Part shown: piece after piece, positions 7,929-61,985 of the stretch
How positions within the stretch are numbered: the first letter of the stretch is position 1
Layout of the letters: every line of letters begins with the position of its first letter
DNA from: Norana najaformis
Taxonomy: Eukaryota; Annelida; Clitellata; Crassiclitellata; Hormogastridae
DNA: 64,000 nucleotides
Assembly (NCBI GenBank): GCA_964023275.1
Contig: OZ029916.1
Coordinates: 12,516,607 to 12,580,606, forward strand
Reading direction: 5' to 3'
Notes under the pieces: generated by a model
The model's input: only the letters and a program-made list of their open reading frames with translations
Told to the model about the DNA's origin: nothing
Database searches by the model: none
Position numbers and translations under genes: made by a program

Positions 7929-10347
7929 CTATGGTGGATAAGCAATTTGAAACAGGTAAGTTTTAAGTCGAGAACGAAATGACAGGAGCGACTGAGCAGA
8001 ACGAACAGACACAGGGAGGGAATTCCAAAATTTTGGTCCAGCAACCGAAAATGCTCGTTTACCAAGAACAGTTCTAGCCCAAGGTATGACCAGAGAAAGA
8101 CAATCAGATGACCTTGCAGAATAATGGTAAGTCTGGGGAATAAAGATTGATTTCAAGTATTGTGGTTGTTCAATGTTTTATAAACTGTAAGTCCTAATTT
8201 GAAACAAATCCTTTGCTGAACAGGAAGTCAATGTAAAGATTTAAGCACAGGGGTTATATGCTCATATTTAGAAGTATTTGTTATGGCTCTAGCCAAGGAG
8301 TTCTGAACTCTTTGGAGTTTCTGCATGTTTGATTTAGTGATACCAACAAGAATGGAGTTACAATAGTCAAGGCGACTGGAGACCAATGCATTAGCTAAGG
8401 ATATTCTGGAAGACATTGGGACATAATGCCTAATTTTGTATGTCTCGAATATACATATATGATGACTTACAAATACCATTTACATAGTTTGTGAGGGACA
8501 TGGTTGAATCGAAAACAACACCCAAGTCACGAGCAGTATCAGTCATCTCAATGAGTGAATCACCCAGTTTTACAGATTTAAGCCATTCGAATTTCTTAAG
8601 TTGCTGAGGAGTGCCAAGCAGTAGAAATTCATTTTTCGAGGGGTTAAGGAGAAGTTTATTTGCTGCCATCCAAGACTGCAGTTCTTCAAAGGCATCAGAC
8701 AACAGCTGGACAGACGAGTGACAAGTCAAACTGTCAAATGAGATGTAGATTTGGGTGTCCTCAGCATAGAAATGATATGCCAGTGAATGATTGTCTAGCA
8801 GAGTACCTAGAGGTGTGGTGTATAATGTAAACAAAAGAGGACCAAGTACAGAACCCCACAAGTCAGCGAGGCACTAGCTGAATAATGTCCATTTAAATAT
8901 ACAGATTGAGTGCAAGGGCTGAGGTAAGTAGCAAACCAGTGTAGGGCAGGACCAGAAACTCCAAACCAATGTTGAAGACGATGCAAAAGGAGAGAGTGGT
9001 CGACAGTATCAAAGGCAGCAGACAAATCAAGGAGAACAAGTGCAGTCACCTTACCGTTATCCATGGAGCACATGATGTCGTTATGAACAGCAAGCAGGGG
9101 AGGTTCTGTTGATTGAAATTTACGGTATGCAGACTGAAATGGAGAAATTAGTGGGTTGGAAGATAGGTGAGCTTGCATACGATTCAAAACTACCCGTTCA
9201 AGAATTTTAGATATAAAATTCAAAGTTGAGATGGGTCTGTAATTAGACAGGTCACTTGGATCGAGAGAAGGTTTCTTTAGCAGATGATGAACTATGGCAT
9301 GAGCAAAACCAGAAGGAAAGGATCCCTCAGGCAATGAGAAATTGATAATTGATGTAATGGTTGGACCAAGGACATAAAACATTCTTTTAGGTAAGAAGTG
9401 GGAATGGTGTCTAGGAGAGAGGTTTTGTCAGGTGAAGAAAATATGAGTCTGCGGACCTCCGCAAGAGTTGTTGGCAGAAAGTAATCCAAGACTGGAGGAG
9501 AAGAACTAGGAAGAAGAAATTTATCACATAACAAATAACCATTAAATTTCAGCCTTATACCAGAAATCTTATCAGCAAAAAAGGTCAAAAATTTACTGGC
9601 TAGCTCTTGGGTAGCACAGAACACGCCAAAAGATGAATTTAATTTCTCTCTGTGTAGTAATTTATTCAAAGCCATCCACAGAGTTTTTGGAGATGTAGAA
9701 CTTTCGGCAATTACATTAGTTAAATATTCTGATTTTGCTGAAGAAACAAGTTTGCGCACAAGTTTACACTGTTGCTTAAACCTACTGAGATCTGAGGGAA
9801 GTCGAGAGTGCTGCCACCAACGCTCTAACTGACTTCTGTGACGCCTAACATCGGAAATGGCAGAGTTGAACCAAGGCTGGGGTGTGCGCTCTACTACTCT
9901 TTTAGTTCTAAAAGGAATTTGTCTGTCAAGAAGCTCAGATAAAGTAGACTGGAACTGCATAGCCAGTTCATTAGCAGTTTGTGCAGGAGATAACCACAAT
10001 GGAGATGTTAAGATATCATGCTTCAACTTATTTAAATCATGCTTCAACTTATTTAAATCAATTTTATGCCAAGGACGAAATTTAATAGTTTTATAATTTG
10101 AAGGTGATTTAAAAGGGAAGTCAAATTTTGAGGAAATTGCAATATGATCTGATAAATATGACTCAAGTGGCGAGACAGAATGAAGTGATTTTGAGTCAGA
10201 ACGAGTTATCAAAACATCTGAGGTGTGGCCTTTATTATGTGTAGGAAAGGTAACAAGTTGTTTCATGTCGGACCCTTCTAACATATCAAGAAATGATGAG
10301 GAATAATGACCAGCTGTATCAATATGAATATCTAACTGCCACGTCAT
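7929..10347 (-). pseudogene. LINE A ORF2 remnant: endonuclease C-terminus and reverse transcriptase
   Basis: The reading passes through five overlapping frames (10347-9292, 9382-8807, 8861-8430, 8479-8228, 8156-7929), so at least four frameshifts exist. Endonuclease end: PTHNKGHTSDVLITRS and ESYLSDHIAISS. RT: PSDLSNYRPISTLNF, DLSAAFDTVDHSLLLHRL, a damaged CGVL..VLF block, [13 protein letters not shown] (the palm YADD is now YAED), [17 protein letters not shown] and [15 protein letters not shown]-terminus: AFSVAGPKFWNSLPVSV and FRSRLKTYLFQIAY. The YAED change alone would impair catalysis. Confidence 0.85.
10017..10058 (-). repeat. 21-bp tandem duplication inside LINE A ORF2
   Basis: CATGCTTCAACTTATTTAAA is present twice in direct succession. 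It adds seven residues in frame (LNKLKHD twice) to the endonuclease-RT linker of this copy. Confidence 0.75.
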
Positions 10348-10490
10348 CTTAAATCACATAATGTTTAATTCAATCATTCTTCTTATTTTCGGCCTACGTT
10401 GCATGATCGCCTTTCATATCAGTTGCCAACCCTTCCACACCCGCTTGCCATACATTATTCCAACAGCCAAATATTTTTACTGAGCCCAAT

Positions 10491-19742: not shown

Positions 19743-22336
19743 TTAGGAAGACGCAGGAGTGAGAGACGTGACATGATCATATTTTGGAGTTTTAGCGATA
19801 ACTCTTGCCAATGTATTTTTAACTCTTTGAAGCTTCATCAAATTAGCTTTTGGAATGCCAGTAAGAAGTGAGTTGCAGTAGTCAAGACGGCTGAAGACTA
19901 GGGCATTAGCCAAACAAACTAGGGCAGAGAAGGGAATGTGTCGCCTAATCCTACGTATATCACGAATGTGGTAGTGGGCAGACCTACATATAGAATTAAT
20001 ATGTTCATTGAATGACAGGTTGGAGTCAAATACAACACCAAAATTGCGGGATGAACTGTTGCGTTGTACGACGGAGATGCTTAGATTGACGGAATTCAAA
20101 GAATTAAATTTAGTCAGTTGCTGTGAGATTCCAAAAAGGAAACACTCAGGATGGGTTTAAGAGCAGTCTATTTTCTGCCATCCATGACTGAACTTGGTTA
20201 AAGACGTCAGATAATAGAGTGAGAGAGCTGGAAGAAGAGGAATTATCAAAGGAGATGTAGAGTTGAGTATCATCAGCATAAAGATGGGATTCAGACCATC
20301 TTTGACTAAGTAAAACACCTAGTGGAGTTGTGTACGAGGAGAAAAGCACGGGCCAAGAACAGAACTTCGAGGGACACCGCAGGTGAGTGGTATCTGGTCC
20401 GACATAGCACCACTGATGCAGATAGATTGAGTACAAAAAGCAAGATATGATTTGAACCAGTTAAGGGCCAGGCCTGATATACCAAACCAGTGCTCAAGGC
20501 GATGGAGCAATGTAGCATGATCGACAGTGTCGAAGGCGGCAGATAGGTCAAGAAGAGCTAGTGCAGTTACTTTGCTATTGTCCATGGAGCAGATAATGCC
20601 ATTATGGACAGATAGAAGAGCTGTCTCAGTGGAGTGGAATTTGCGATATGCTGACTGGGAAGGGAGGAGTAAGGAGTTTGAAGACAGATGTGCCTCCAGT
20701 CGACATTTAACAACGCGTTCAAGAAGTTTACAACTAAAATTAAAGTTTGAGATTGGTCGGTAGTTTGACATAGTTTCAGCATCCAAAGATGGTTTCTTCA
20801 GCAAAGGATGGACAATCGCATGAGAGAACCATGATGGGAAGGAAAAAGTCGGCAAGCGACCGATTAATTAATATTAATATCAAGATTGTAGTACCAAGCA
20901 CATCAAAGCAGCTTTTTAGAAGGTGGATAGGGACTGCATCTAGGAGGCAATATTTGTCAGGAGATGAGAAATTAAGCGACCGGATTTAACCCAAGGTTGC
21001 TGGAGTAAGAGAATCAAAAGTAGGCAGAGGGTGATCAGAAGTTGAAAATCCATTTGATAATGGAATACCAGAAAATTTTAACCTGACATTGGATATTTTG
21101 TCATCAAAGAATTTAATGAAAGCATCAGCCAGCGCAGATGGCGAAGGAGGTTTTTGGTAGTGTGCATGGTGTTTTCCTGTGGAGGGCCTGCCAATGCGAC
21201 CTCGGGCAAGATGAAGTTTCTGAAATTAAGTCTGTGAGATGGGAGGATTTGGCCTTGGAAAATAGGCTGCGAACAATTTTACAATTTTGTTTGAAACGTA
21301 CACGATAAAAAGGAAGTCATGAACGGCGCCAAGTGCGTTCAAGTTGGCTACGCAGACGTCGAGCTTCAGGAATTTTAGAATTAAACCAAGGCTTCGTGTC
21401 ACGAACGACAACCTTCTTGGTTTTAAGAGGAATATGCTTACCAAGAAGTCTGGTTAGAACAGACTGGAGTTGGTGAGAGAGGGTATCTGCAGATAAGTCT
21501 GAGTAAGAAGAAGGACGTGAGGAGATGTCATTCTTGAAAGTCTGGATATCTAGTTGATGCCAGGGTCTGAAAGTGATAACAGTGTAATTTGGTGGTGGTT
21601 TGGTTGGAAAAGAGATGGAAGCAGCAACGGCAAGATGATCAGAAAGATAAGTTTCCTTAGTTAAGATATCTTGAATTATGTTACAATCAGATCTTTTCAC
21701 TAGGAGATCAAGGGTGTGACCTTTAGCATGTGTTGGCAAGGTTATGTGCTGCTCAAGATGGAAAGAAGTCGAGAGCTGATGAAAGGTAGTAGAAATAGGA
21801 TTATTTGAATCGACATGAATGTTAAAGTCACCCGTTATGACTAGTTCAGTAGGAGATAAGATTAAAGCCTCCAAAAGAGCTTGAAATTCATTGAAGAAAT
21901 CCGTTAAAGAAAGTGATGGAGGTCGATATAATATATCTAAGAGTGTAATGTACTTGGTGCCCGAGTTTAGAGTGGCAATTAGAACTTCAAAAGACATTGG
22001 AGAAGGTATAGGGAGGACAGATCTGGACAAAGGCAAGAAGGATTTATAAAGAAAAGCTAATCCACCACCACTTCTACTCGGTCGTGGTTCTTGATGCAGT
22101 GAAAATGAAGGGGGAGTTATGTCTGAAAGGAAGGACTGAGTGTCATCAGGAAGTAGCAAAGTTTTATTAAGTGCCATAGTATGAATTTGTTCCTCAATGA
22201 GAAAATTTGTCAAAGAAAGGGTTTTGGAACGGATACAGGCAACGTTCAGATGGCAAAAGTTGAAGGTTTTTAAGAGCGATTGGCCAGGGTTCAACTCAAT
22301 ATCACCAGCAAGAAGTAGGAGAATAAGGATATGCAT
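19743..22336 (-). pseudogene. LINE C ORF: endonuclease and reverse transcriptase (broken)
   Basis: 22336-21317 is one long frame. It opens MHILILLLLAGDIELNPGQ, then CHLNVACIRSKTLSL, GGGLAFLYKSFLPLSRS, LYRPPSLSLTDFFNEF, ITGDFNIHVDSN, LPTHAKGHTLDLLVKRSD and TYLSDHLAVAASISFP. That is a nearly complete APE endonuclease with GDFNIH and SDH catalytic boxes intact. The RT at 20855-20319 shows MSNYRPISNFNF and DLSAAFDTVDHATLLHRL. 20436-20146 shows HLYADDTQLYISFD with the YADD box intact. 20099-19743 gives RNFGVVFDSNLSFNEHI. The linker and frame changes near 21300, 20900 and 20330 are broken. Confidence 0.85.
22280..22306 (-). other. Degenerate 2A-like motif GDIELNPGQ in LINE C
   Basis: GDIELNPG matches the D-x-E-x-NPG part of 2A peptides, but the final, essential Pro is Gln (CCA to CAA would explain it). 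Position between hydrophobic leader and endonuclease is the same as in LINE B. Confidence 0.55.
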
Positions 22337-22689
22337 TTGTATGCCGTTGCGTTTTTCGGTGATAAGCGCGACTTTTTACCTTGCAAGACAGTCCAGTCTT
22401 GGAAAAGAATCAATTTTGCAGTGAACAACAGTCGAGAAAAGGAACATACTAGAAGAAAAAAGCATCATCAGGATGTTTGAAAAATTGATGAGAATGACAA
22501 AATACGGTGGCTGACTAACAAGAGGTAAAGAGACAGGCAGGCGAGAACTGTCAATGACAAGGTAGTAGCACAGATCTCGGGGAGATTGCCAACGGGGCCA
22601 TTGTTGACCAGAAACACTAAATAAAGCGAAAACACCACAGTGAGCTTTAAACAAAGACGGAGTGTACTGAGGAGAGAGTAAGGAATTCA

Positions 22690-27289: not shown

Positions 27290-28205
27290 ATGTTCTGCCC
27301 TTAGGCAGGTCCAAGAATCCAACGACGCCACTCTTCTCTGTTCTGTGGCCTTTCCTTAACTTCTTTGTAGCCCCTTCTTTCTTTATCCGTCATCCATTCC
27401 TACAGCATATTTCTTGGTCTTTCTGGAACCTTCTTTCCTTCAATTCTTCCTTCAATCACTGTTCTCAGGAGAGGATTTCCACACAGAATGTGTCCAATCC
27501 AGTTCACTTGTTTCCTGCTTATTGCGTTGACCAGTGTCCTTTCTTTCTGTACCAAGTGCAACCAACAACTTGTCATTTGTTTTATAATCCTTCCAGCTGA
27601 TTTTGGCCACATCTAAAATGCTTCGAGTTTCTCAGTTTCTGCCTTTCCAATAGTCCATCTCTCTGAACCACAGCTTTACACTCCATGAGGCTTTTCACAA
27701 TTCTTTTTTTTAGATCTAGATTCAGTCTTCCTCTGACAAGTTCTCCTCTCCTTCAGAATGCTTCTTTCCCCATTGCTATTCTTCTCTTGATCTCGGCACT
27801 GCATCTGCAGTCATCTGATATTATACTTCCTAGATAACAAAACTCGTGGACTTGTTCAGTTTTTGTGCCATCAACTACATTAGTTATTCGTTTTCCTTCA
27901 CGTTTACTCAATCTCATCACCTTTGTTTTCTTTCTAATTATATTCACACCATATTCTTCGGATTTTTCGTTCAGCGCATCCATTATTTCTTGTAGTCCAG
28001 CCTTGGTACCTGTTACCATTGCCTGATCAATCACAAATCTTCTGGCATTTACCAGATTCCCTAACTTTGATTCCGCCATCTATATTCCCCAGCGCTTCTG
28101 TGACCAACATCTGTATGCAGATGTTGAACAGTAAAGGAGATAGCAGGCAGCCTTGTCTGACTCCTCTTCCTGTTCCTCCAGGATCTGAGTTTATTCCATG
28201 TTCTC
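27290..28205 (-). pseudogene. RTE-clade LINE reverse-transcriptase remnant
   Basis: 28215-28027 reads GVRQGCLLSPLLFNICIQML. A changed frame then gives RRFVIDQAMVTGTKAGLQEI (the catalytic FADD position reads VIDQ), KKTKVMRLSKREGKRI, VHEFCYLGSIISDD and CSAEIKRRIAMGKEAF. 27612-27400 gives ERTLVNAISRKQVNWIGHIL and TVIEGRIEGKK. These are the RT core and C-terminus of the RTE-like EN-RT LINEs common in invertebrates. The endonu­clease part is absent. Confidence 0.8.
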
Positions 28206-28409: not shown

Positions 28410-29900
28410 TCCCTGAACGCACGCAGCGCCGTTCACAAAGGAGCACTTATAGTCGATTTGATTGAATCGAACCAGATAGACGTGCTGGGAGTCTGCAAGA
28501 CTTGGATTTCAGCTGATGATCCCAATGCCATCAAGTTTGACATGAACCCGTCAGGGTACGTCACCAGACACGTCCATTGTTCAGCCCCAGGACGAATTGG
28601 GCAGAAACAGCGGTCTTGCGATCATCCACCGCAATACGCTTGCCGTAAAAATTCATCCGGTACAGAATGCTGCGACAACAAACAGTTTCCACTTCCAAGC
28701 TGTCAAAATAATTACCTCTAACATCTCGTTCCTCTTCATTAATATCTACCGCTGGCCAGGTTCCAACCTTAATGAATTTTACCATGAATTCAGCAACCTT
28801 CTTGCTGCAACTACCACCGTGATTGGTAGCGAACGACTTATTCTCAGCGGAGACTTCAACTGCCCTGGAAACAATTCGTCCAGCATCTCCGAACACCTAT
28901 CCACAGTACTTGACGTCTTCGGCTTAAAGCAGCTCGTGTTAGGTCCAACGCGTAATGGGCCGACCGGTGACAGTCTGCTTGATCTTGTCATCGCCGGACT
29001 GAATTCGACATCGATCAAGAACATACAGGTGTGTAGTAGCCACGGATTGTCCGACCACCATCTGGTGAATTCGACGGTTGCAAGATGCCTCAACAGAAGG
29101 CAACCAATTACTATTGTCTACCGGAAGCTTAAAACACTCGACGTTGACTCCTTCCGACAAGCATTTATTAATTCGTCACTGTTCTTGGCTCCTGATGACA
29201 CCCCCGGCGGCTTTGCTTGTCAGATAGACGACGTTGTCACCGACATCCTGGACCAGTTGGCTCAGCTGAGGAAATTTGCGAAATGCCCAGGAAAAAAAAT
29301 CAATCGCTGGCTATCTCCTGAAGCCACAGCTGCAAAACGACTTCGTCGACGCTTAGAAAGGCGTTGGAAGGCTACCGATGATGAACTTGTTCGCCGCGCC
29401 GTATCGGTCAGCATGCCGTAACGCCAACAAACTCATAAACGACTCATGCCGACAATACTACAGTGACACCATATCGGAAAAGCCTAACGGATCTCATCTA
29501 CAATGGTCAGTAGTAAAGGATTTACTGCACTCCATAGTGCCCTCTGAGGCGTTACCGAATGAAGAATGTCAGAAACGCTGTTCCACGTTCTCAGACTTCT
29601 TCATGAATAAGACCAAGTCAATAAAGGCATCAATTGCCAATCAGTTGTCCGGACAACCCACAGACTCTCTTGCATCATATAGGGATTATGTCGGCACATC
29701 TTGATCACCTCAGACAAGTGGATGGCGCAGAAATCTTCAAGCTATCGTCTTCTTTACCGGGAAAATCATCTCCGATGGATGCTTTCCCATCGTCTTTGCT
29801 AAAGTCATGTGCGGACGTGTTCACTCCAATCATCGTTCGTCTCTGCAATTTGACTTTCAGTTGCGGACGTTTTTCAGCCTCACAGATCGTCTGCTAATCC
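28410..29900 (+). pseudogene. LINE D endonuclease, linker and RT N-terminus (broken)
   Basis: First frame: SLNARSAVHKGALIVDLI, IDVLGVCKTWISADDPNAI. After a shift near 28590 a 274-codon frame gives GRNSGLAIIHRNTLAVKI, INIYRWPGSNLNEFYHEF, ILSGDFNCPGNNSSS, LVLGPTRNGPTGDSLLDLV and VCSSHGLSDHHLV. These include the GDFN and SDH endonuclease boxes. The linker has KKINRWLSPEATAAKRLRRR. A later frame has WSVVKDLLHSI and the RT start SPMDAFPSSLLKSCADVFTP. The endonuclease part is the best-preserved of this family here. Confidence 0.8.
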
Positions 29901-36489: not shown

Positions 36490-36941
36490 ATCAGACCATC
36501 AAATACAGCATCGTTACGAAAAGAAATCAGTTCTTCAGTGATATCGTCGACAGCTGCAAGCATTCCAGATACAGTCTGATATGCTGACTGCAATGAAAGC
36601 ACGAGCCATTCCAGTGGTGCAATAACACTGGCCAACACATAATTTGTTGCCTCAAATGTTAGAACTGTTTCTGGGTATATTTGACCTGCTGATTCCAGAA
36701 AAGGCACCAGTTTTCTCCCAGCAGGTCTAGTTTTCGAGATATAGAACATTATGCCATATACCAGTCCTTGCCTCTGCTCGCCCATAAAACATAAGGCTAT
36801 AGCTATAATTATGTAGTGCTCAATTTATTATGTGATACACTAAATAAACATAATAATACAAATACTTAAAAGAAAATGGTAGTACCTGAAACTGTACTTA
36901 TATGATACCAAACAGAACAAGTTTGTTATAAAAATTTCAAG

Positions 36942-38645
36942 TCATTCGACACCGAAGAAGCTCCTTTTGTACGATTTCCGAGCGTGGCATCTGCCGGAAC
37001 AATCGCGCATAATATTCCAGCAATAGTCTGCCATCATGTGTGCATCCCATCTTCCTTGATATCGATTTTCCATTGTTTTGATGTCTTGGTGAAATCTTTC
37101 ACCTTGCTCTTCGCTGAAGTCACCAAGATTCTCTGGAAAGCGATCTAAGTGACTGTGGAGATAATGGACTTTAATGCTCATGTTGCAGCCAAGCTTGTTG
37201 AAATGAAGAAGCATATCCTCTACTAGTTGTGCATAATTGTCTGCCTTCTTGTTGCCAAGAAAATTTTTAGTTACAAGAACAAAGGAAGACCAGGCACAAA
37301 ATTCGATTTCATTCACTGATGGTATGAAAAGTGAGTAATTCATAAGTTGCCTGATCTGTGGACCATCGAAGATTCCAGCCTTCAATTTTTCCATTGTAAT
37401 TCCTGGTAACTTGTGTACTATGTATTCGAAGCATGAACCTTCTTTATTCAAAGCCCTGACAAATTGTTTCATCAGGCCTAGCTTTATATGTAGTGGTGGC
37501 AGTATGATCCTATCTCGTGCCACCAAAGATTCCTTGATTACATTTTGAGCTCCAACCACCATGTCTTTCCTCGAAGGCCAATCTTTTCTTGTCCAATGTT
37601 CATGCTTGGCTCTACTGTCCCAAAGACACAAAAAGCAGGGATACTTTGTGTAGCCACTTTGTTGACCAAGGAGGAAATTTACCATCTTCAAGTCTACACA
37701 AATTACCCATTGATGTTCTTTGTATTTTATCTTTTCCAGTACTAAAGAGATGGCATTGTACTCTTCTTTCATCCTGGTGGAGTGACCGATTGGAATAGAA
37801 CCAAATTTGTTGCCGTTATTTAAAAGCACACATTTCAGACTACGTTTTGAACTGTCGATAAAAAGACGCCACTCATCTGGGCTGTAATCCGACAGACCAA
37901 TTTTCTTCAATAAGTTGCTGATGTCATTACAGAATACTAGGTTGTTGTCTTCGGTAAAGAATGGCAGTAAATCCTTTTCTCTGTTTCTATAAATTGTAAT
38001 TTTCGTTCCAGGCTGAAGTGCATTCTTTTCCTTTAGTCTGGACGCAATCAATTCAGAGGACTCTTTGGAAAGATTTAAGTCCCTGATCAGATCACTCAAC
38101 TCTTTTTGGTCAAAAAGTTCACTGTGTGAAGTTGATTGGAAATCACTGTCACTGCCCCCACTTTCTTCACTTTCGTCATCTTGTCCGATATTGGACATGC
38201 AAGTCTCATCGTCTGAGAGCTGAGGTAGTTCGCGAAAAGGTGAAACTGGTACAATATCCGAATGCGGAACAGGTCTCCTGGCTGAAGGTATATCAGGGTA
38301 AGACAACTTGTGACGATTATTTTGATTGATGCCTATGATATTAACCATACAAAAGTAACAGTCGTCGAAGTGGTTTATCTGTTCCCTCCAAACCATCGGT
38401 ACACCAAATTTCAGGCAGCTTCTCTTTCCAATTGTCCAGTGGCACAATTGTTCAATACAAGTTTTGCATACTGTAGGAGGAGCCCATTGCTTATCTTGAT
38501 CTCCAAGTTTGACACCAAAATAACCTACATATGCTCTTTTTACAAACTCAGAAATCGGTTTCCTGTTTGCTTTTAGTGTGTATTCCCCACAAATGTAGCA
38601 GAATATGTCTGGATGGTTAATGCAGCTCCGTCTGGAAGTAGCCAT
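36942..38645 (-). CDS. Intact 567-aa transposase-like protein of transposon copy 1 (unclassified family)
   Basis: One uninterrupted frame from ATG at 38645 to a stop at 36942. The N-terminus has three CxxC pairs (C16/C19 in FCYICG, C60/C63, C96/C99 in CYFC), likely zinc-binding, then an acidic Ser-rich linker (about 145-175). A probable RNase-H-like core begins LFIDSSKRSLK (D264), followed by VICVDLKMV (D318), CFLCLWDSR (337-345), and SEEQGERFHQD (about 511-521). The Asp/Asp/Glu residues are candidates for a DDE site; this is inference. The element copy at 45.1-47.8 kb encodes the same blocks. Its position between inverted repeats argues for transposase. No signal peptide or membrane segment is seen. 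Being open in so decayed a window suggests a young insertion or selection. Confidence 0.8.
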   Translation of the reverse strand: MATSRRSCINHPDIFCYICGEYTLKANRKPISEFVKRAYVGYFGVKLGDQDKQWAPPTVCKTCIEQLCHWTIGKRSCLKFGVPMVWREQINHFDDCYFCMVNIIGINQNNRHKLSYPDIPSARRPVPHSDIVPVSPFRELPQLSDDETCMSNIGQDDESEESGGSDSDFQSTSHSELFDQKELSDLIRDLNLSKESSELIASRLKEKNALQPGTKITIYRNREKDLLPFFTEDNNLVFCNDISNLLKKIGLSDYSPDEWRLFIDSSKRSLKCVLLNNGNKFGSIPIGHSTRMKEEYNAISLVLEKIKYKEHQWVICVDLKMVNFLLGQQSGYTKYPCFLCLWDSRAKHEHWTRKDWPSRKDMVVGAQNVIKESLVARDRIILPPLHIKLGLMKQFVRALNKEGSCFEYIVHKLPGITMEKLKAGIFDGPQIRQLMNYSLFIPSVNEIEFCAWSSFVLVTKNFLGNKKADNYAQLVEDMLLHFNKLGCNMSIKVHYLHSHLDRFPENLGDFSEEQGERFHQDIKTMENRYQGRWDAHMMADYCWNIMRDCSGRCHARKSYKRSFFGVE

Positions 38646-38801
38646 AACCTTAAGGATGTTCGCATCTGAGGAATTAAATGACTAACCTAAAAAATAGTAA
38701 GAACATGTAGTTATTTAATGCTCACATTCACAGATTGTTCTTGCGACCAACTCTTAATATGCCCTAAGACGACTGTGGCTGCTCTAGCTTTCAGGAGGCG
38801 G

Positions 38802-38809
38802 TTTATATA
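38802..38809 (-). promoter_or_regulatory. Possible TATA box of transposon copy 1
   Basis: TATATAAA on the minus strand in the context CCTATATAAACC, about 157 bp upstream of the copy 1 ATG. A TTTTTTAG/GTTAG acceptor-like site lies between it and the ATG, so a 5' intron is possible. No heat-shock pentamers are seen here. Confidence 0.35.
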
Positions 38810-39899
38810 GGCTATAAATGCTGACTTCAGCATAATCTATTTACATAGTTCGAAACCATGAAACGCTGTATAAGCACAAATGAATTCTAAATGAGGCCAT
38901 GAATTTAGTGCTGAGTAAGCTGTAGGCTACGGAATAGTTATTTCGTTGAATCAGCAATATCTCAGCACGCGGCAAGATATGCTGATTTTACATTATAAGG
39001 ATGTAGGCATTATATGAATCAGCAAGAATTATAATTAGCCATAAATAAAGCTTATTATGACATTTTAGTTTTGCCAAAGACATCGTTTAAAGAGTGGACT
39101 GGGTTTTCTTTACAAAATCGACGATATCTCAGAAACTAGACCTGATGCACTCAATCCAATGACATTTTCTGAATCAGCGCCCAAAATTACCCCAAGAACA
39201 GGTCTAAAACCGAAGGCAACAAGAAAAAAAAATTTTCTGTTGGCCAGTGTAATCTTTAGAGCCATCTTTAATCCAAACACCACGTTTCCTTTCTGCAAAC
39301 TTACATGTAAACCAGATGCGCGAGTTGCCACGGTTGATGATGATACTTTACCATGCGACATTTCATCCAGACATTAAAAAACTGAAGAGTACGAGTCAGA
39401 AGTGAAAGAAGCCCTTTAACCCTCACAAGCCATCGTGTAGGGCACAGTGGTTTAATTCGCTCTACCTGTTGAAGGGGATTCTCCGACTGAATGATGTTAG
39501 AAAATATGGTATGACATTTGCTAGATTGTGAAAACAAACGGCCAAGCTCCTGAAGATTATGCAGTGAATCTCTAACCAATTAGAAAGACTCTACAGTTTG
39601 CTGTGACACAAGGTTAATGCAGTGAGCTGCACTATGAAAACAAAAAGCACGCAGCTGTCGCTCAGCTATGATTGCTTGGCAGCCATTGTATTGACCAGAC
39701 ATGCTACTTGCTCCATCATATGACTGTCCACAAAGAAGAGATACTGGTAGCTGTAAGCGTAGCAATACGTAAAAAAGGCACTTGGCCAGAATTGCACCTG
39801 TTGTGGAAGGCGGATCGTATAGCCCCACAAATTGCTATCACGTCGAATGTCATTACCTCACACAGCAATTTTTCGGCAGTATCAGCAAGCAAGAACCTC

Positions 39900-44312: not shown

Positions 44313-44815
44313 CCTTCCTAACACTGATTTTTAACCCTCCTTGAAGACCGTCAAGTGTTTCTCTCATAACCATCTCTGCTATGATGCTAAATAAATGTGA
44401 TGAAAGGACGCGGCCCTACCTGACCCATTTTCGGATATGATACCATTGTCGCTGTGCACCTGCCACTCTTATTTTAGCAAGCTCTTTCTCGTATAGGTTT
44501 CCTTAGTAAGTTGACGAGACGTACTGGGTATCACATGTCAATCATGGTGAACCGAAGCAAATGATGTGAGATTGAATCAAATGGCTTTCTGAAATCCACA
44601 AAGCCCATGAACAGAGGTTGCTAGTGCTTCCTTGTCTTTTGCATGAAGATCCGAAGGTTAGTGCTCTGATTTCTTGTCCCACTGCCTCGCCGGAAACCTG
44701 CCTGTTCCTTTGCAATCTCGCTTTCCGTCTTCTTACGAACCGCGCCAAGATGATTCTGAGCAGTACTTTGCGAGCAATTGTTCTATAATTATAGAACCTC
44801 ACCGTGTAACAAAGA
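44313..44815 (-). pseudogene. RTE-clade RT fragment
   Basis: Minus frames: TIARKVLLRIILARFVRRRK, ISESHLIQSHIICFGSP, NLYEKELAKIRVAGA, WYHIRKW, then MVMRETLDGLQGGLKISVRK. It is colinear with the RT of the RTE element at 48.2-50.3 kb. It abuts the left end of transposon copy 2. Confidence 0.7.
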
Positions 44816-44820
44816 ATTAT

Positions 44821-44938
44821 TTTTTTTGTTCATGGGTAGTAAGTGTTATTTCCTAATTGCTTATGCCTCAAAACTATAGCAAAATGGCTATTATTACCCA
44901 CAAACTTTGCTTTTTTGACCAGGATAGTGATATTCTGA
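44821..44938. repeat. Left terminal inverted repeat of copy 2
   Basis: Pairs with 47955-48072 in inverse orientation, about 80% similar by eye over ~115 bp, starting around CATGGGTAGTAAGTGTTATT. Confidence 0.75.
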
Positions 44939-45002
44939 ATTTTGTTTACTTTACAGAACACTCAAGATGAATTCAGTACCGAGTAAACTTGGAGTAATTG
45001 CT

Positions 45003-45067
45003 AGAACTTTCTAGAACTTTCGCGAATATTCTAGAACGTCCGAGAACCTTCCAGAACTTTCTAGAAA
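45003..45067 (+). promoter_or_regulatory. Heat-shock element array: 13 contiguous alternating GAA/TTC pentamers
   Basis: Pentamers nGAAn and nTTCn alternate without a gap from 45003 to 45067. Twelve of 13 are exact; the eighth (45038-45042, GTCCG) has one change. Heat-shock factor trimers bind three such pentamers, so at least four trimers could bind. The array ends one base before the TATA box, a close-up version of metazoan hsp promoters. Confidence 0.9.
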
Positions 45068-45076
45068 TATAAATAG
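45068..45076 (+). promoter_or_regulatory. TATA box of transposon copy 2
   Basis: TATAAATAG directly follows the heat-shock array. TATAAATA is the form found in insect hsp genes. Confidence 0.8.
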
Positions 45077-45099
45077 CAGTATAAATGACCTTAAGCCCA

Positions 45100-45110
45100 C
45101 CAGTTCAGTT
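45100..45110 (+). promoter_or_regulatory. Initiator-like start site
   Basis: CCAGTTCAGTT contains initiator-like TCAGTT with its A at 45107, 39 bases after the first T of the TATA box, or CCAGTT with its A at 45102 (34 bases). The distance suits a TATA-driven start. The 5' UTR would be about 35-40 bases. Confidence 0.5.
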
Positions 45111-45185
45111 TAGTTGTAGCCTAAGTGGATACATATCTGAGTTGGCATCAAGAGGCTGCAAGCATCCGGCAGACGCATTTTGCTA

Positions 45186-46004
45186 TGTCTGCAGCCGGGT
45201 CCGTAGCAAAAGCGCACAGGACAAAAACGGGTCGACAAAAGCGCGCTAACAAATGCGCGCAGACAAATGCGCGCAATGATAACAACCCGACAAACGCGCG
45301 CAAGACAAAAGCGCGCAACTTTAGAATATTATACCTAATGTTTATTAATGGTCAATAATGTTCGACGCGCAAATCTATGTTTGCCTTGCAACTGTGGACC
45401 ATTCGTGATCGTGTAGTCGACAACCTGCCACGCACGAACAACTCAGCCGAAGCCTGGCAACGCTCCTTTCAACAGACCGTCGTCGATTGTCATCACCCCG
45501 TCGGTTTACAAACTTGTTGAGCAATTCCGTCAAGAACAAGGTCACTACGAATTGAAGAAAACGAGGTATTGTTCCGAATTCAGACATTCGGAGGCATCCA
45601 AGTCAAAATACGTTTGTTTGAAACTACGATTGCAGGCTTTGGCTCCAACATATGGAACAGTTCCGTTGGGAGATTACTTGCGTGGGATCGCTCATAACGT
45701 TAACATATAAACTGGTTTTATTTTAGCTATAGCAATACGTGTGAATAATATTACTTGAAGGAGTTACACGGTTATTTCTAGTGTATATATATATTGTAGT
45801 ATATTTTTGCGTGCTTCTGCTATTAAATTACTATAAAACAACTATTGTTTTTGATTATCTTTATACGCGCTTTCGTCGGCACTCGTTTGTACTATGCGCT
45901 TTTGTTGCTGCGGGCTTATGACGGCGAGCTTTTGTCGGCGCGCTTTTGTCGACGCGCTTTTGTCGACGCGTTTTTATCCTGCGCTCTTTTGTCGGGTGTG
46001 TCTG
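45186..46004 (+). mobile_element. Mutator-like (MULE) derivative inserted in copy 2
   Basis: 45192-45998 is flanked by TGTCTG (45186-45191 and 45999-46004). The duplication could be 9 bp, TGTCTGCGG, allowing one changed base in each copy. Both ends carry arrays of CGACAAAAGCGCGC-like units in inverse orientation (45205-45327 and 45862-45998). The middle encodes a MULE transposase C-terminus: LPRTNNSAEAWQRSFQ, then, after a frameshift, LVEQFRQEQGHYELKKTRY and LGDYLRGIAHNVNI. Size and content suggest an internally deleted non-autonomous element. Confidence 0.7.
45395..45715 (+). pseudogene. MULE transposase C-terminal remnant
   Basis: WTIRDRVVDNLPRTNNSAEA and DYLRGIAHN match the conserved end of animal Mutator-like transposases (LPRTNNxxExWH...LDYLRGIAHN). 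One frameshift lies near 45515. The catalytic DDE region is absent. Confidence 0.7.
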
Positions 46005-46161
46005 GGGCCAATTTGTCAAGACAAGAGCGAAAAAGTACTCCGTGGAAGCATCTACTAAGATGTACGAAGCCTGCAAGGCATATTTCAGCATGCCTGTCGG
46101 AGATCAAGGTAAACACTGGGCACCTCATTACACCTGCGAGCACTGCAAAAAACGCTAGAGG

Positions 46162-46371
46162 GTAAGATGGACAATTGATACTCGCTTAGGTGGCGACATT
46201 TTATGTTATAAAAGTTTTAAAAGTTTGAAATGTTGTAATTTCACAATTTAAAAAAAAATGTAAATGTTATTGAACAAATATATGAAATATGTTGCGAGAA
46301 TCTTACACATTAACCATGGGTGAAATACATTTATTTTGTTATGATCACAATTTCATTTTGTTCTGTTGCAG
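46162..46371 (+). other. Spliceosomal intron in the copy 2 gene
   Basis: It begins GTAAGATGG, and ends in a pyrimidine-rich TTCATTTTGTTCTGTTGCAG. Removing it joins ...CTAGAGG to GTTGGTAC, giving the LEGWYRG block. Copy 1 is continuous at this point (QLCHWTIGKR). Confidence 0.8.
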
Positions 46372-47954
46372 GTTGGTACAGAGGGAAAAAGACAGCCATG
46401 AAGTTTGCTATCCCAAGAATTTGGCGGGAACCCACTGACCGATCAAGAAATTGCTACTTCTGCATGGTGGATCCTTCCAAACGGCGGACTGGCAAGAATG
46501 CACCTGCTATCACGTATCCGAACCTTCCTTCATCCATCGCTCCAGTGCCACACTGCCCTGCACTTCCTGTCCCACTCATCCAGAGAGAAAGCAGCCGTCT
46601 TCAGAAGAAAGCAGTCAGTCAGAAAGCGAGGAAGACTTTAGAGATCCAGATTACAATTTTCGAGCTGAGGAGAGAAACCCCTGATATCCCAACCAAAAAG
46701 ACCTCAGCGACTTGATCAGAGATCTTGGTCTCACCATGTCCATGCCGAGCTTCTGACGTCTTGGGTCAAGCAGTGGAATTTGTTGAATGAAAGTGTGCAA
46801 GTCGCAGATCAGAGGAAGCGTCACCAAGCTTTTTTCAGCTTTTTCACCATTCAAGATGGGCTCTGCTGCAGCCACAATGTGACCGGTGTGTTCGAGGCAA
46901 TTGGAATCGACTGTAACCCGAACGAGTGGCGTCTCTTCACTTACAGTTCATCCAGGAGCCTCAAAGCCGTGCTGCTCCATAACGGGAAGAAGTACCCGTC
47001 ACTTCCTCTGGTTCACTCGGTGCACCTCAGAGAGGATTACAACAGCATCAAGAGCTTACTAGACGCCTCAAAGTATGATGAGTACGGTTGGGAGGTGATC
47101 AGAGACTTAAAAATTGTAGCATTCCTGATGGGTCTCCAAGGCGGTTTTACCAAGTTCCCTGCTGTCTGCCTTTGGGACAGCAGGGACAAGAAGTTGCACT
47201 ACCATAGGCGGGACTGGCCACAGCGGACCGAGTTCTCTACGGAGAGGAACAACGTCAAGTGGGAGCCATGGTGGACCCCCACAAGCTGCTGATGCCACCA
47301 CTGCGCATCAAATTGGGCCTTATAAAGCAATTTGTCACAGCTCAAGATAAGGAGTCGGCAGTCTTCAAGTACCTTCAAAACTTCTTCCCTAAGCTGTCTG
47401 AGGGAAAGGTCAAGCTGGCATTTTCGTCGGACCACAGATAAAGAAGACCCTGGAGTGGAAGAATTCCCCAAGAAGCTCACTAGGAAGGAGAAAGCGTCTT
47501 GGAACAGCCTTGTCGCAGTGGTTAGGGGCTTCCTGGACAGTCACAGGGCCGAAAACTATGTGGAACTGGTCGAGACTCTGGTGAGGAAATACGGCCAAAT
47601 GGGTTGCAGGATGTCCCTCAAAGTTCATATCCTTGATGCTCATCTTGGTAACCAAGCAGAACATGGAAGCGTACTCGGAGGAGCAAGGCGAGAGCTTCTA
47701 TCGAGTATACTGGACTTTGAACGTCGCTACCAAGAGCAGTATAACGAGAACGTGACAGGAGCATTTGGGGGTCGATTCGTATAAGTGATTTACAGTATAC
47801 TCGTAAATTTCGAAAAACTACCAACTTCCAAATCTTTTGTGGTAATTTTTGCATAATTATAGTATAAACACATGTTAATATTGATTCATATGTTGTTATT
47901 TTTATTTGCACGAAAACACGCAAATTCTCCCGTTTCTTTACTGGAAATAGGTAA

Positions 47955-48072
47955 ATTTCGAAATATCATTGTCTTGGTCACAAGAGCAAAGTTTAAAGGG
48001 AATAACAGCCATTTTCTATACTTTTGAGGCATAAGCAAGTAAGAAATAACATTTACTACCCAGACACAAAAA
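47955..48072. repeat. Right terminal inverted repeat of copy 2
   Basis: Inverse counterpart of 44821-44938; the outer end is ...CTACCCAGACACAAAAA. A palindrome-like CACAAAAATTGTG spans the probable boundary. Confidence 0.75.
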
Positions 48073-48242
48073 TTGTGTTATTTATTGTAATTTGTGCACT
48101 GTTTATCACCTTTATTGGAAAGTGGTACGAATGCAGTGTCCCGTTCTTTATTATTTTGAAGTAGACGAAAAATAGCATTATGCAAAAATGAGGCCTCTGA
48201 CCAAGTGAGACTCGGGCCAAATGGCCCTGCTGGCCCCTCTGT

Positions 48243-59811: not shown

Positions 59812-61298
59812 GTGTAATTGTAATTACGACAATTTATATAGCATCGTTAGTAGCTTGCTACTTCTTGGGTGTTTTACAAAGTCAAAAGTCAGCCCAAGAA
59901 CTAAGAGTTATGCATCAAATACAATTTCAGCTGTTTTTTTAAAGAGGTTGACACTTTTGGACTCCCGAATGGATGCCGGAAAGCTGTTCCAGGCACACGG
60001 ACCAACGACCCGAAAGGCCCGATCACCTATTCTAGTCTTAGTTGCTGGTACAAAGACATTGGCGGAGTTTGATGATCGCAGTCGCAGTCGGTTGGGGTCA
60101 TCAGATAGTGGCCTGATGCTGTCTGCAAGATAGCGTGGTGCACAGTTGTTCAGACATTTGTACGCAAGAAGACAAAGTTTGAATTTCACGCGCTCGGCGA
60201 TCCTTAGCCACTGAAGTTGGTCCTGAAGCACGAGTGTGATATGGTCGGATCTGCTAGTCCGAGTGGCCAGACGAGCAGCGGCGTTGAAGACTGCCTGAAG
60301 CCGAAGGGTTCTGCACTGTGGCAAGCCAGCGAAGGCAACGTTGCAGCAGTCGATTTGGCTTAGGACCAGACTTTGTACGAATTACGTCCTTTGTGAGGGA
60401 CCGAGAGACAGACCTTAGCTGTCTCAGGATGGCGAAGCTGGTCCTCACAAGTCCTGTAATGTGTGATGTCATTGAGAGGTCACTGTCAAGTAGGAGGCCG
60501 AGATCACAAACCTCAATCGCTGGCTGAACAGCACATTCACTGATGAAGAAAGGGCTAGTATCTAATTTGTCCACCCTACGTGAAGATAAGCACCAGAGAA
60601 ATTCTGACTTGGATGAATTCAGCTGGAGCCGATTGCATTTCATCCAGTCAGCGACGTCATTGAAGCAGCTCATTGACACGGTCCTTAGGTGCTGGACATC
60701 AGTGTCATCAGGGCGACAGGAGCTGTAGATTTGAGAGTCGTCGGCATAGAGATGACCATGCAGACCGTGCTTGGATATTATATGTAGGATGTCGGCAGTA
60801 TAGAGGAGGAAAAGAATGGGTACCAGAACTGAGCCTTGAGGGATGCCACAGGTTAGAATAGTAGGTGTGGAGGAGGAGCAGGCATGACGGACACTTTGCT
60901 GTCTACCTGTCAGGTAAGACGTCATCCACTCAAGCACGGTGGATGACATGCCATAAGACAAATGTAGTCGGTGAAGGAGAATGCAGTGGTCAACTGTGTC
61001 GAATGCAGCAGACAGGTCCAGAAGACACAGAAGAGAGAAGTTTCCGGAGTCAATTGCGGTGAGTTTGCCAGAGAGAATATGTGCGAGAGCCGTCTTTATG
61101 GAATGGGAAGCACGGTAGGCCGACTGTCTTTCTGGGAGCAGGTTGTTGATGTTGAGGTAGCTGACAAGTTGCCTGTCTACGACCCTTTCTAGCATTTTAG
61201 ATAGAACAGACAAGTTAGATATTGGCCGATAAGTTTTTGCATCAGTGGTGTCTAAACCCGGTTTCTTTAGCAGCGGAGTGATAGTTGCAACTTTAAAG
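59812..61298 (-). mobile_element. L2-clade LINE (family E), 5'-truncated, inserted in Polinton remnant
   Basis: The 3' tail is at 59812-59850 (minus: GATGCTATATAAATTGTCG, then AATTACAATTA). RT 61213-60254 is a 319-codon frame: YRPISNLSVLSKMLERVV, ERQSAYRASHSIKTALAHIL, LCLLDLSAAFDTVDHCILL, ILTCGIPQGSVLVPILF, HGHLYADDSQIYSSCRP and CDLGLLLDSDLSM. The YADD box is intact. 60324-59908 continues with LQAVFNAAARLATRTSRSDH and GPCAWNSFPASIRESKSVNL. One frame change near 60290. It is the best-preserved RT in the window. Truncated at the RT N-terminus (AAFKVATITPLLKKPG). Confidence 0.85.
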
Positions 61299-61299
61299 G

Positions 61300-61985
61300 C
61301 CGCTGAACATCCTAGACGACCCCATCCCAGAAGCGGTCAAACAGCGCTGGCTCCGGCCTCTTTCCATCTCGCTACCGGCCCTCGGGACCGCTCAGAGCGG
61401 CCATGGCGAAAAAGAGACAGGCCGTCATAGCGGAGTTTGACCTCCTCTGCAGGCAGGAACAACCGCAGTATCGCGAACACAAGGAAAAAGCCGTCTTCCG
61501 CGACTATCGTATGGTCGTGCCTTTGGGATACTGACTGGATGGAGACGCGCTGGCATTTCTAAGCGCCATGACGCCAGCATTGGGGTAAATATATGATGAC
61601 AACGACGAGTCCGACATCGTTACAGCAGCAAAGCACCGCGACGCCAATCCTTAATGTGGTTGACATTAAAGACGCAGTAGAGGCGGCCAAAGCAGTGATG
61701 CTCCGACACCTAGACGAGTACACCCACGAGGGGTCGGATGGAAACTCTGGCGAGTAGTAGCACTGGATCTAGGGTCAGGCCAGTACCGACCCCTCTGCGC
61801 TTGCAGATACTTCACTACACCAAAGTGCCTCCCACCGTGTTCAGTTGTCAACGTGGAAAACAGAGACAACCTCTGCTTCGAGAGGGCCATATTGTCGGCA
61901 ACGTATCCTGCAGAAAAGACCCCAAACGCCCAGGCAAATTTCGATCCCATCTCGGCGAGTTGGACTTTACATGAATCGCCTTCCC
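61300..61985 (+). pseudogene. Polinton/Maverick polymerase N-terminal region (broken)
   Basis: MAKKRQAVIAEFDLLCRQEQ opens near 61403. After several stops, frames give HEGSDGNSGE / SGWKLWRVVALDLGSGQYRP, then VVNVENRDNLCFERAILSAT, YPAEKTPNAQANFDPISA, and FPVKVTDI near 61980. The block NVxNxDNxCFxxA..S is typical of the N-terminal region of protein-primed polymerases of Polintons. Confidence 0.55.

Follow-up and report, generated by a model that had tools for sequence, protein, structure and literature searches.

Structure of the locus and of the heat shock element array

The window analyzed in this study is a stretch of 64,000 nucleotides from the genome of the annelid Norana najaformis (assembly GCA_964023275.1, contig OZ029916.1, positions 12,516,607 to 12,580,606 of the forward strand). 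It contains a decayed DNA transposon with terminal inverted repeats, here called copy 2, which belongs to the Chapaev3 family (CMC superfamily). Its transposase gene is preceded by a long array of heat shock elements (HSEs), the predicted binding sites of heat shock factor (HSF). All positions are those of the window, and the features are collected in Table 1.

The array (45003 to 45067) is composed of 13 alternating GAA/TTC pentamers placed end to end, 12 of which are exact, and 38 of the 39 core letters agree with the HSF pentamer. A canonical HSE requires three or more nGAAn repeats in alternating, inverted orientation (PMC8379338), and the array presents 13 such units without interruption. 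The window was simulated 100 times with an order-2 Markov model, and the maximum score over 13 pentamers was 25/39, compared with 38/39 at the array. The observed score is matched in 2 of the 100 simulations at 4 pentamers and in none at 6, 8, 10, or 13 pentamers. The array is the top match of the window at 4, 5, 6, and 13 pentamers, and at 3 pentamers the site at 27420 ties with it. Tandem Repeats Finder, which has no knowledge of HSEs, independently calls the array as a 10-bp repeat. The first-pass annotation, which was made from the letters of the window, had described this array with the same pentamer counts, and the simulations place it beyond chance.

The array adjoins a first TATA-like box, TATAAATAG, and is followed by an initiator, both situated where the first-pass annotation had placed them. 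A second TATA box lies between the two. Among the 40 copies scored in the genome survey described below, the distance from the end of the array to this second box is 12 bp in 36, and the box reads TATAAA in 28; its first T is 32 bp from the A of the initiator in 32 copies, and 27 bp from it in the window copy. The second box is thus a better candidate than the first and is likely the functional one. The position of the transposase start codon (45142) reads ATG in 32 of the 40 copies.

Conservation of the array in the host genome

The host genome (608 Mb, 17 contigs) was searched with the left end of copy 2 (44821 to 45130, array included), which gave 487 candidates, of which 40, including the window copy, were scored. 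The array is found just upstream of the TATA box in all 40. In the alignment of these left ends, 8 to 12 of the 13 pentamers are exact (median, 10), and 33 to 38 of the 39 core letters agree (median, 36). Because this query contained the array, the test was repeated with a query from the coding part only (46735 to 47274); it gave 236 candidates, of which 40 were scored and 30 were fetched. The left end could be read in 20 of these copies, and the array is present in all 20. It was found directly in 19 of them (28 to 38 of the 39 letters, with shortened arrays in L073 and L083), and in L076 it occupies the beginning of the stretch that was fetched and precedes an insertion. The left end is unreadable in the stretches of the other 10 fetched copies, among them two array-bearing ones, the window copy and its duplicate. 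Four copies (L068, L072, L078, and L090) are common to the 20 copies of the coding query and the 40 of the left-end query. Since all readable copies in both sets bear the array (40/40 and 20/20), the array is a trait of the family. The first-pass annotation had made its claim for the family as a whole; copies without the array, or signs of an expansion private to one copy, were looked for in these two sets, and neither was found.

The cores and the spacers of the array differ in their conservation. When the majority-base array of the family is compared with its 10-bp unit, mismatches occur at 1 of 39 core positions and at 9 of 26 spacer positions (Fisher p = 0.0007), and the majority-base array is the same when the window copy and its duplicate are left out. 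Conservation equal to that of the cores is reached by just 2 of the 210 possible choices of six positions. The cores were kept while the spacers varied, which points to selection in a once-active family and argues against a private microsatellite. Later decay does not explain the spacer variety of the window copy, since the change per inverted-repeat arm since insertion (approximately 9.4%, assuming that the arms began identical) is too small to produce nine spacer differences (P = 0.0004).

In view of these results, it is extremely improbable that a neutral expansion of the microsatellite type gave rise to the array and spells HSEs by chance. Such an expansion would be consistent with the tandem period of 10 bp and with length changes in single copies, i.e., the segment from the linker to the TATA box, usually 62 bp, is 10 bp longer in L069 and 30 bp shorter in L073; however, the array lies at the same position in every readable copy examined, and its majority cores are kept while its spacers vary. 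A private microsatellite was rejected on the same two grounds.

The one-sided position of the array bears on another explanation, in which the units are subterminal repeats bound by the transposase, as in the plant element En/Spm (CACTA), and not a promoter. CACTA elements share a superfamily with Chapaev3, En/Spm carries subterminal repeats, and the period-10 repeat of copy 2 is situated approximately 200 bp from one end of the element. At the right end, however, the best 3-pentamer score is reached by 127 of 200 shuffles and the best 13-pentamer score by 22 of 200. Furthermore, the end of the array keeps a near-constant distance to the TATA box and the initiator, its cores match the HSF pentamer, and no HSE-type array precedes the open reading frame of the second Chapaev3 element of the window (copy 1, described below). 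We therefore consider a transposase-binding role very unlikely.

Long HSE arrays elsewhere in the genome and the host hsp70 promoters

An exact six-pentamer pattern has 71 forward-strand matches in the host genome, compared with 1 for the backward control. Fifty of the 71 matches, extending to contig C9, were placed, and overlaps were merged by hand, which resulted in 43 places; the family holds 41 of these 43 places among the matches listed. Thirty-one places were fetched, and 29 of them are in the element as judged by their flanks (array excluded), while L115 and L116 are outside it. The remaining 12 lie within copies already assigned to the element (ten by the left-end query, and L069 and L073 by the coding query).

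The two places outside the family (L115, G000:C8:33405380-33405910, and L116, G000:C9:331500-332030) are dense HSE arrays, and L116 scores 36/39 over 13 pentamers. They may be host heat shock promoters or parts of another repeat. Within the family, an internally deleted copy of approximately 0.65 kb (L051, also recorded as L004; G000:C3:27361059-27361696) retains both ends and the HSE array and is a non-autonomous carrier of predicted HSF sites.

As a host control, we used the upstream stretches of seven hsp70-family hits. Three of them (L092, L093, and L094) have a TATA box with an HSE (score, 8/9 or higher) no more than 60 bp upstream of it and a TCAGT downstream of it; L092 reads TATAAATAG...TCAGTT. 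TATAWA sites with an HSE of at least 8/9 within 60 bp make up 3 of 11 in the hsp70 upstreams, compared with 1 of 117 elsewhere in the window. The order of array, TATA box, and initiator in the element matches that of these three host hsp70-family promoters. Their HSEs are much shorter than the element array, with best six-unit scores of 14 to 16/18, and the 13-unit scores of all seven upstream stretches are 21 to 27/39. In L092, L093, and L094, the TATAAA box and TCAGT initiator form an arthropod-like core promoter located approximately 0.4 to 0.9 kb before the coding match.

Structure of copy 2 and assignment to Chapaev3

The first-pass annotation had described an element of approximately 3.25 kb bounded by inverted repeats. 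The inverted repeats are confirmed (82.6% identity between 44823-44943 and 47953-48072), and a DNA transposon of the terminal-inverted-repeat type is supported; the ends, on the other hand, had to be moved, as homology between copies stops at CACCGTG (44800) on the left and at 48087 on the right. An earlier placement of the ends with a TTA duplication at 44817 and 48078 was rejected on the basis of this copy alignment. The first-pass annotation was correct in calling this copy dead, since the start codon of the transposase is damaged and its frame is broken. The MULE insertion that it reported is also present as a MULE-like insert, with inverted arms at 45207-45282 and 45916-45991 and 9-bp flanks (45187-45195 and 46000-46008) that are identical at 7 of 9 positions. 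The intron has a GT donor in 15 and an AG acceptor in 14 of 16 aligned copies, a set that includes the window copy and its duplicate. In 20 fetched stretches, the 11 copies with both ends span 2.0 to 2.8 kb, seven of them 2.36 to 2.47 kb, as measured approximately 30 bp short of the true ends.

Table 1. Positions of the transposon features in the window and the basis for each
Feature	Position	Strand	Basis
Whole decayed Chapaev3 element (copy 2), nested MULE-like insert included	44800..48087	+	Homology limits among copies
Left terminal inverted repeat	44800..44973	+	Alignment to right end; outer tip by copy comparison
HSE array of 13 nGAAn/nTTCn pentamers in alternation, without gaps (12 exact)	45003..45067		Pentamer scoring and family copies
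First TATA-like box, TATAAATAG, adjoining the array	45068..45076	+	Sequence; TATAAAT in 21/30 copies
Second TATA box	45080..45087	+	Spacing across 40 scored copies
Initiator TCAGTT (A at 45107)	45105..45110	+	TCAGTT in 36/40 copies
Transposase exon 1, damaged start codon, split by the MULE-like insert	45142..46161	+	Homology to copy 1
Nested MULE-like insert within exon 1, 14-bp subterminal tandem repeats in inverted arms	45196..45999		Arms and flanks
Intron GT-AG, 210 bp	46162..46371	+	Conserved splice sites
Transposase exon 2, frameshifted	46372..47784	+	tblastn pieces versus copy 1 region
Right terminal inverted repeat	47923..48087	-	Alignment to left end; copy comparison
Copy 1, second distinct Chapaev3 element; open reading frame 36942-38645 (567 aa)	36626..39249	-	Ends, target duplication, motifs

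The family is Chapaev3 and not an unclassified one, as had been stated in the first-pass annotation. Chapaev3 elements have 5'-CAC/GTG-3' termini and a TWA target duplication, preceded by A and followed by T; their transposases carry the motifs C(2)C, LH, and H(4)H, and the gene has two exons in Merrow and Garfield (PMC4079192). Copy 1 has CAC ends, and on each side it shows a TAA duplication placed between A and T; its protein contains CFLC at 337, PLH at 384, and HYLHSH at 494, which correspond to the three motifs in that order. Copy 2 is related to it by protein homology (best tblastn match, 42% identity over 176 columns, E = 2e-44). The motif check covered copies 1 and 2, and the damaged copy 2 retains one of the three motifs, H(4)H.

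The termini of the copy 2 family agree with the published description. The left tip reads CACCGTG in the window copy and begins with CAC in many others, and GTG is found at the right tip of several (e.g., L034, L035, and L036); the right tip of the window copy is TTG, and the tips are mutated in some other copies. TWA stands immediately 5' of the left tip in 13 of the 29 copies with a recognizable tip, and it is preceded by A in 10; L008 and L016 likewise read ATTA directly before CAC. Among the 11 copies with both ends visible, which were inspected by eye, the TWA sequences match in L035, L036, and L044, and eight are unmatched or unclear. The flanks of the window copy are CCT and TAA, so that its own target duplication is not seen. 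The two-exon arrangement of the predicted gene recalls the Merrow/Garfield branch of Chapaev3.

Pfam gave only weak matches, under the curated cut-offs, for the pieces of copy 2 and for copy 1, and a PDB search gave two matches with E values of 0.35 to 0.38. An AlphaFold model of copy 1, in which a DDE core was sought, was built from just three aligned rows and has a mean predicted local distance difference test (pLDDT) score of 36.7. Rfam gave no match at gathering scores, and the scans of viral contigs revealed no relative; the viral-contig match L001 was rejected as a phage with a chance similarity of 10 residues.

The open 567-aa frame and clean TAA target duplication of copy 1 possibly indicate a younger family. 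A duplicate of the window copy (L032, G000:C4:12632400-12635300) is located approximately 73 kb away; it is 97.4% identical and shares the nested insert. Identity reaches 100% in the common coding part, and the left ends show a difference of approximately 5%. Old mobile elements abound in the window; several LINE-type reverse transcriptase and endonuclease frames lie at 8807-10353, 20319-22375, 28546-29421, and 60254-61336, four of them with Pfam matches and the rest recognized by eye.

Proposed control of the transposase by heat shock factor

Judging from the sequence and the family comparison, copy 2 is probably a dead member of a Chapaev3 family whose transposase was driven by a heat shock promoter, with mobility linked to stress. 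In the proposed mechanism, trimers of the host HSF would bind the 13 nGAAn units of alternating orientation; in the family, these are located approximately 12 bp upstream of the TATA box and approximately 45 bp upstream of the arthropod-like initiator. Through this binding, heat or another stress that damages proteins would turn on the two-exon transposase gene, and the resulting transposase would couple cut-and-paste mobility to the stress of the host. The presence of the array before the element's own gene suggests that heat once awakened the family.

A related explanation is that the main sites of HSF-driven transposase expression are germ cells or embryos, as part of development, with heat induction being secondary, which would give the element access to the germline. 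Only activity in the germline benefits a transposon, HSF has developmental roles, and an array with a TATA box suits any promoter driven by HSF. The layout, on the other hand, resembles that of the hsp70 promoters, and nothing here separates the germline model from the heat model; we regard a mainly germline function as unlikely.

Several observations weigh against control by heat. Every copy examined is decayed: across the 90 fetched loci, open frames, whatever their kind, reach at most 345 aa, and no intact family copy was seen among them (ten of these loci are only 0.55 to 0.6 kb, and many others contain a partial copy), which places the activity of the family in the past. Between copies, the cores are not better preserved than the spacers (p = 0.17), which is expected of dead copies and lends no support to a present function. 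Single copies differ in the length of the array, and in some the difference is a multiple of 10 bp; the array thus partly behaves like a tandem repeat that gains and loses units. Copy 1 has no HSE cluster or HSE-type array upstream of its open reading frame, and four of the seven hsp70-family upstream stretches have no pair of HSE and TATA box; these four may belong to non-inducible members, or their promoters may lie farther off. The intron of the transposase gene also calls for caution because severe heat shock can block splicing.

More tentatively, and with the balance tilting somewhat against it, the family may have done more than hitch its transposase to the heat shock response: its dead or shortened array-bearing copies may have scattered most of the strongest HSF sites of the genome, with a possible rewiring of the host heat response, as an independent parallel to the Helitrons discussed below.

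Comparison with known systems

The copy 2 family shares with the Chapaev3 elements Merrow, Garfield, and Conan the CAC...GTG ends, the TWA duplications, and the C(2)C, LH, and H(4)H motifs, and with Merrow and Garfield the two exons (PMC4079192). It differs from the Chapaev3 elements of that paper in its inverted repeats of approximately 150 bp and its HSE array; the words heat, stress, promoter, and HSF are absent from the main text of PMC4079192. Transposons of Caenorhabditis elegans hold many transcription factor sites, including those of HSF-1, and the excerpts of that study contain no mention of Chapaev or CMC elements (PMC8896005). No match listed among the open PMC papers describes HSEs in a Chapaev or CACTA element, or a conserved 13-unit array in a Chapaev3 cut-and-paste family.

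Heat-activated elements are also known among retrotransposons. ONSEN of plants is reportedly a heat-activated long terminal repeat (LTR) retrotransposon; it is not a cut-and-paste element. A proposal for the Cryptococcus retrotransposons TCN12 and TCN3 is that their heat-dependent mobility stems from putative HSEs in the LTR; these number one or two, compared with 13 contiguous pentamers by the TATA box in the cut-and-paste element described here (PMC12810828).

The first-pass annotation knew of no cut-and-paste DNA transposon of an unclassified family with so dense an HSE array this close to its TATA box. That nothing similar is known is not supported: because of the Caenorhabditis Helitrons, which bear HSEs and are induced via HSF-1, a heat shock promoter on a DNA transposon is already known. 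Helitrons have no terminal inverted repeats; they are rolling-circle elements with another transposase, and their response to heat has been measured, whereas that of the Chapaev3 family is predicted from its promoter. The HSEs of Helitron1_CE of C. elegans are bound by HSF-1, and the element is strongly induced by heat (PMC6765114). Almost two-thirds of the C. elegans HSEs in one analysis, and 46.2% in another, are in Helitrons, where they form dense clusters; according to Garrigues et al., high-density HSE clusters are absent in a broad range of Helitron-annotated bilaterians checked beyond Caenorhabditis (PMC6927752). The likeness to the present family is that of a DNA transposon with clustered, tandem-like HSEs at its transposase gene (PMC6765114; PMC6927752). 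It is an old question whether stress wakes transposons via their own promoters or only through the loss of silencing. A cut-and-paste family with a conserved, unusually long array of predicted HSF sites in an hsp70-like layout would be an independent parallel to the Caenorhabditis Helitrons, and it makes heat-linked transposition and the spread of HSF sites testable in another animal.

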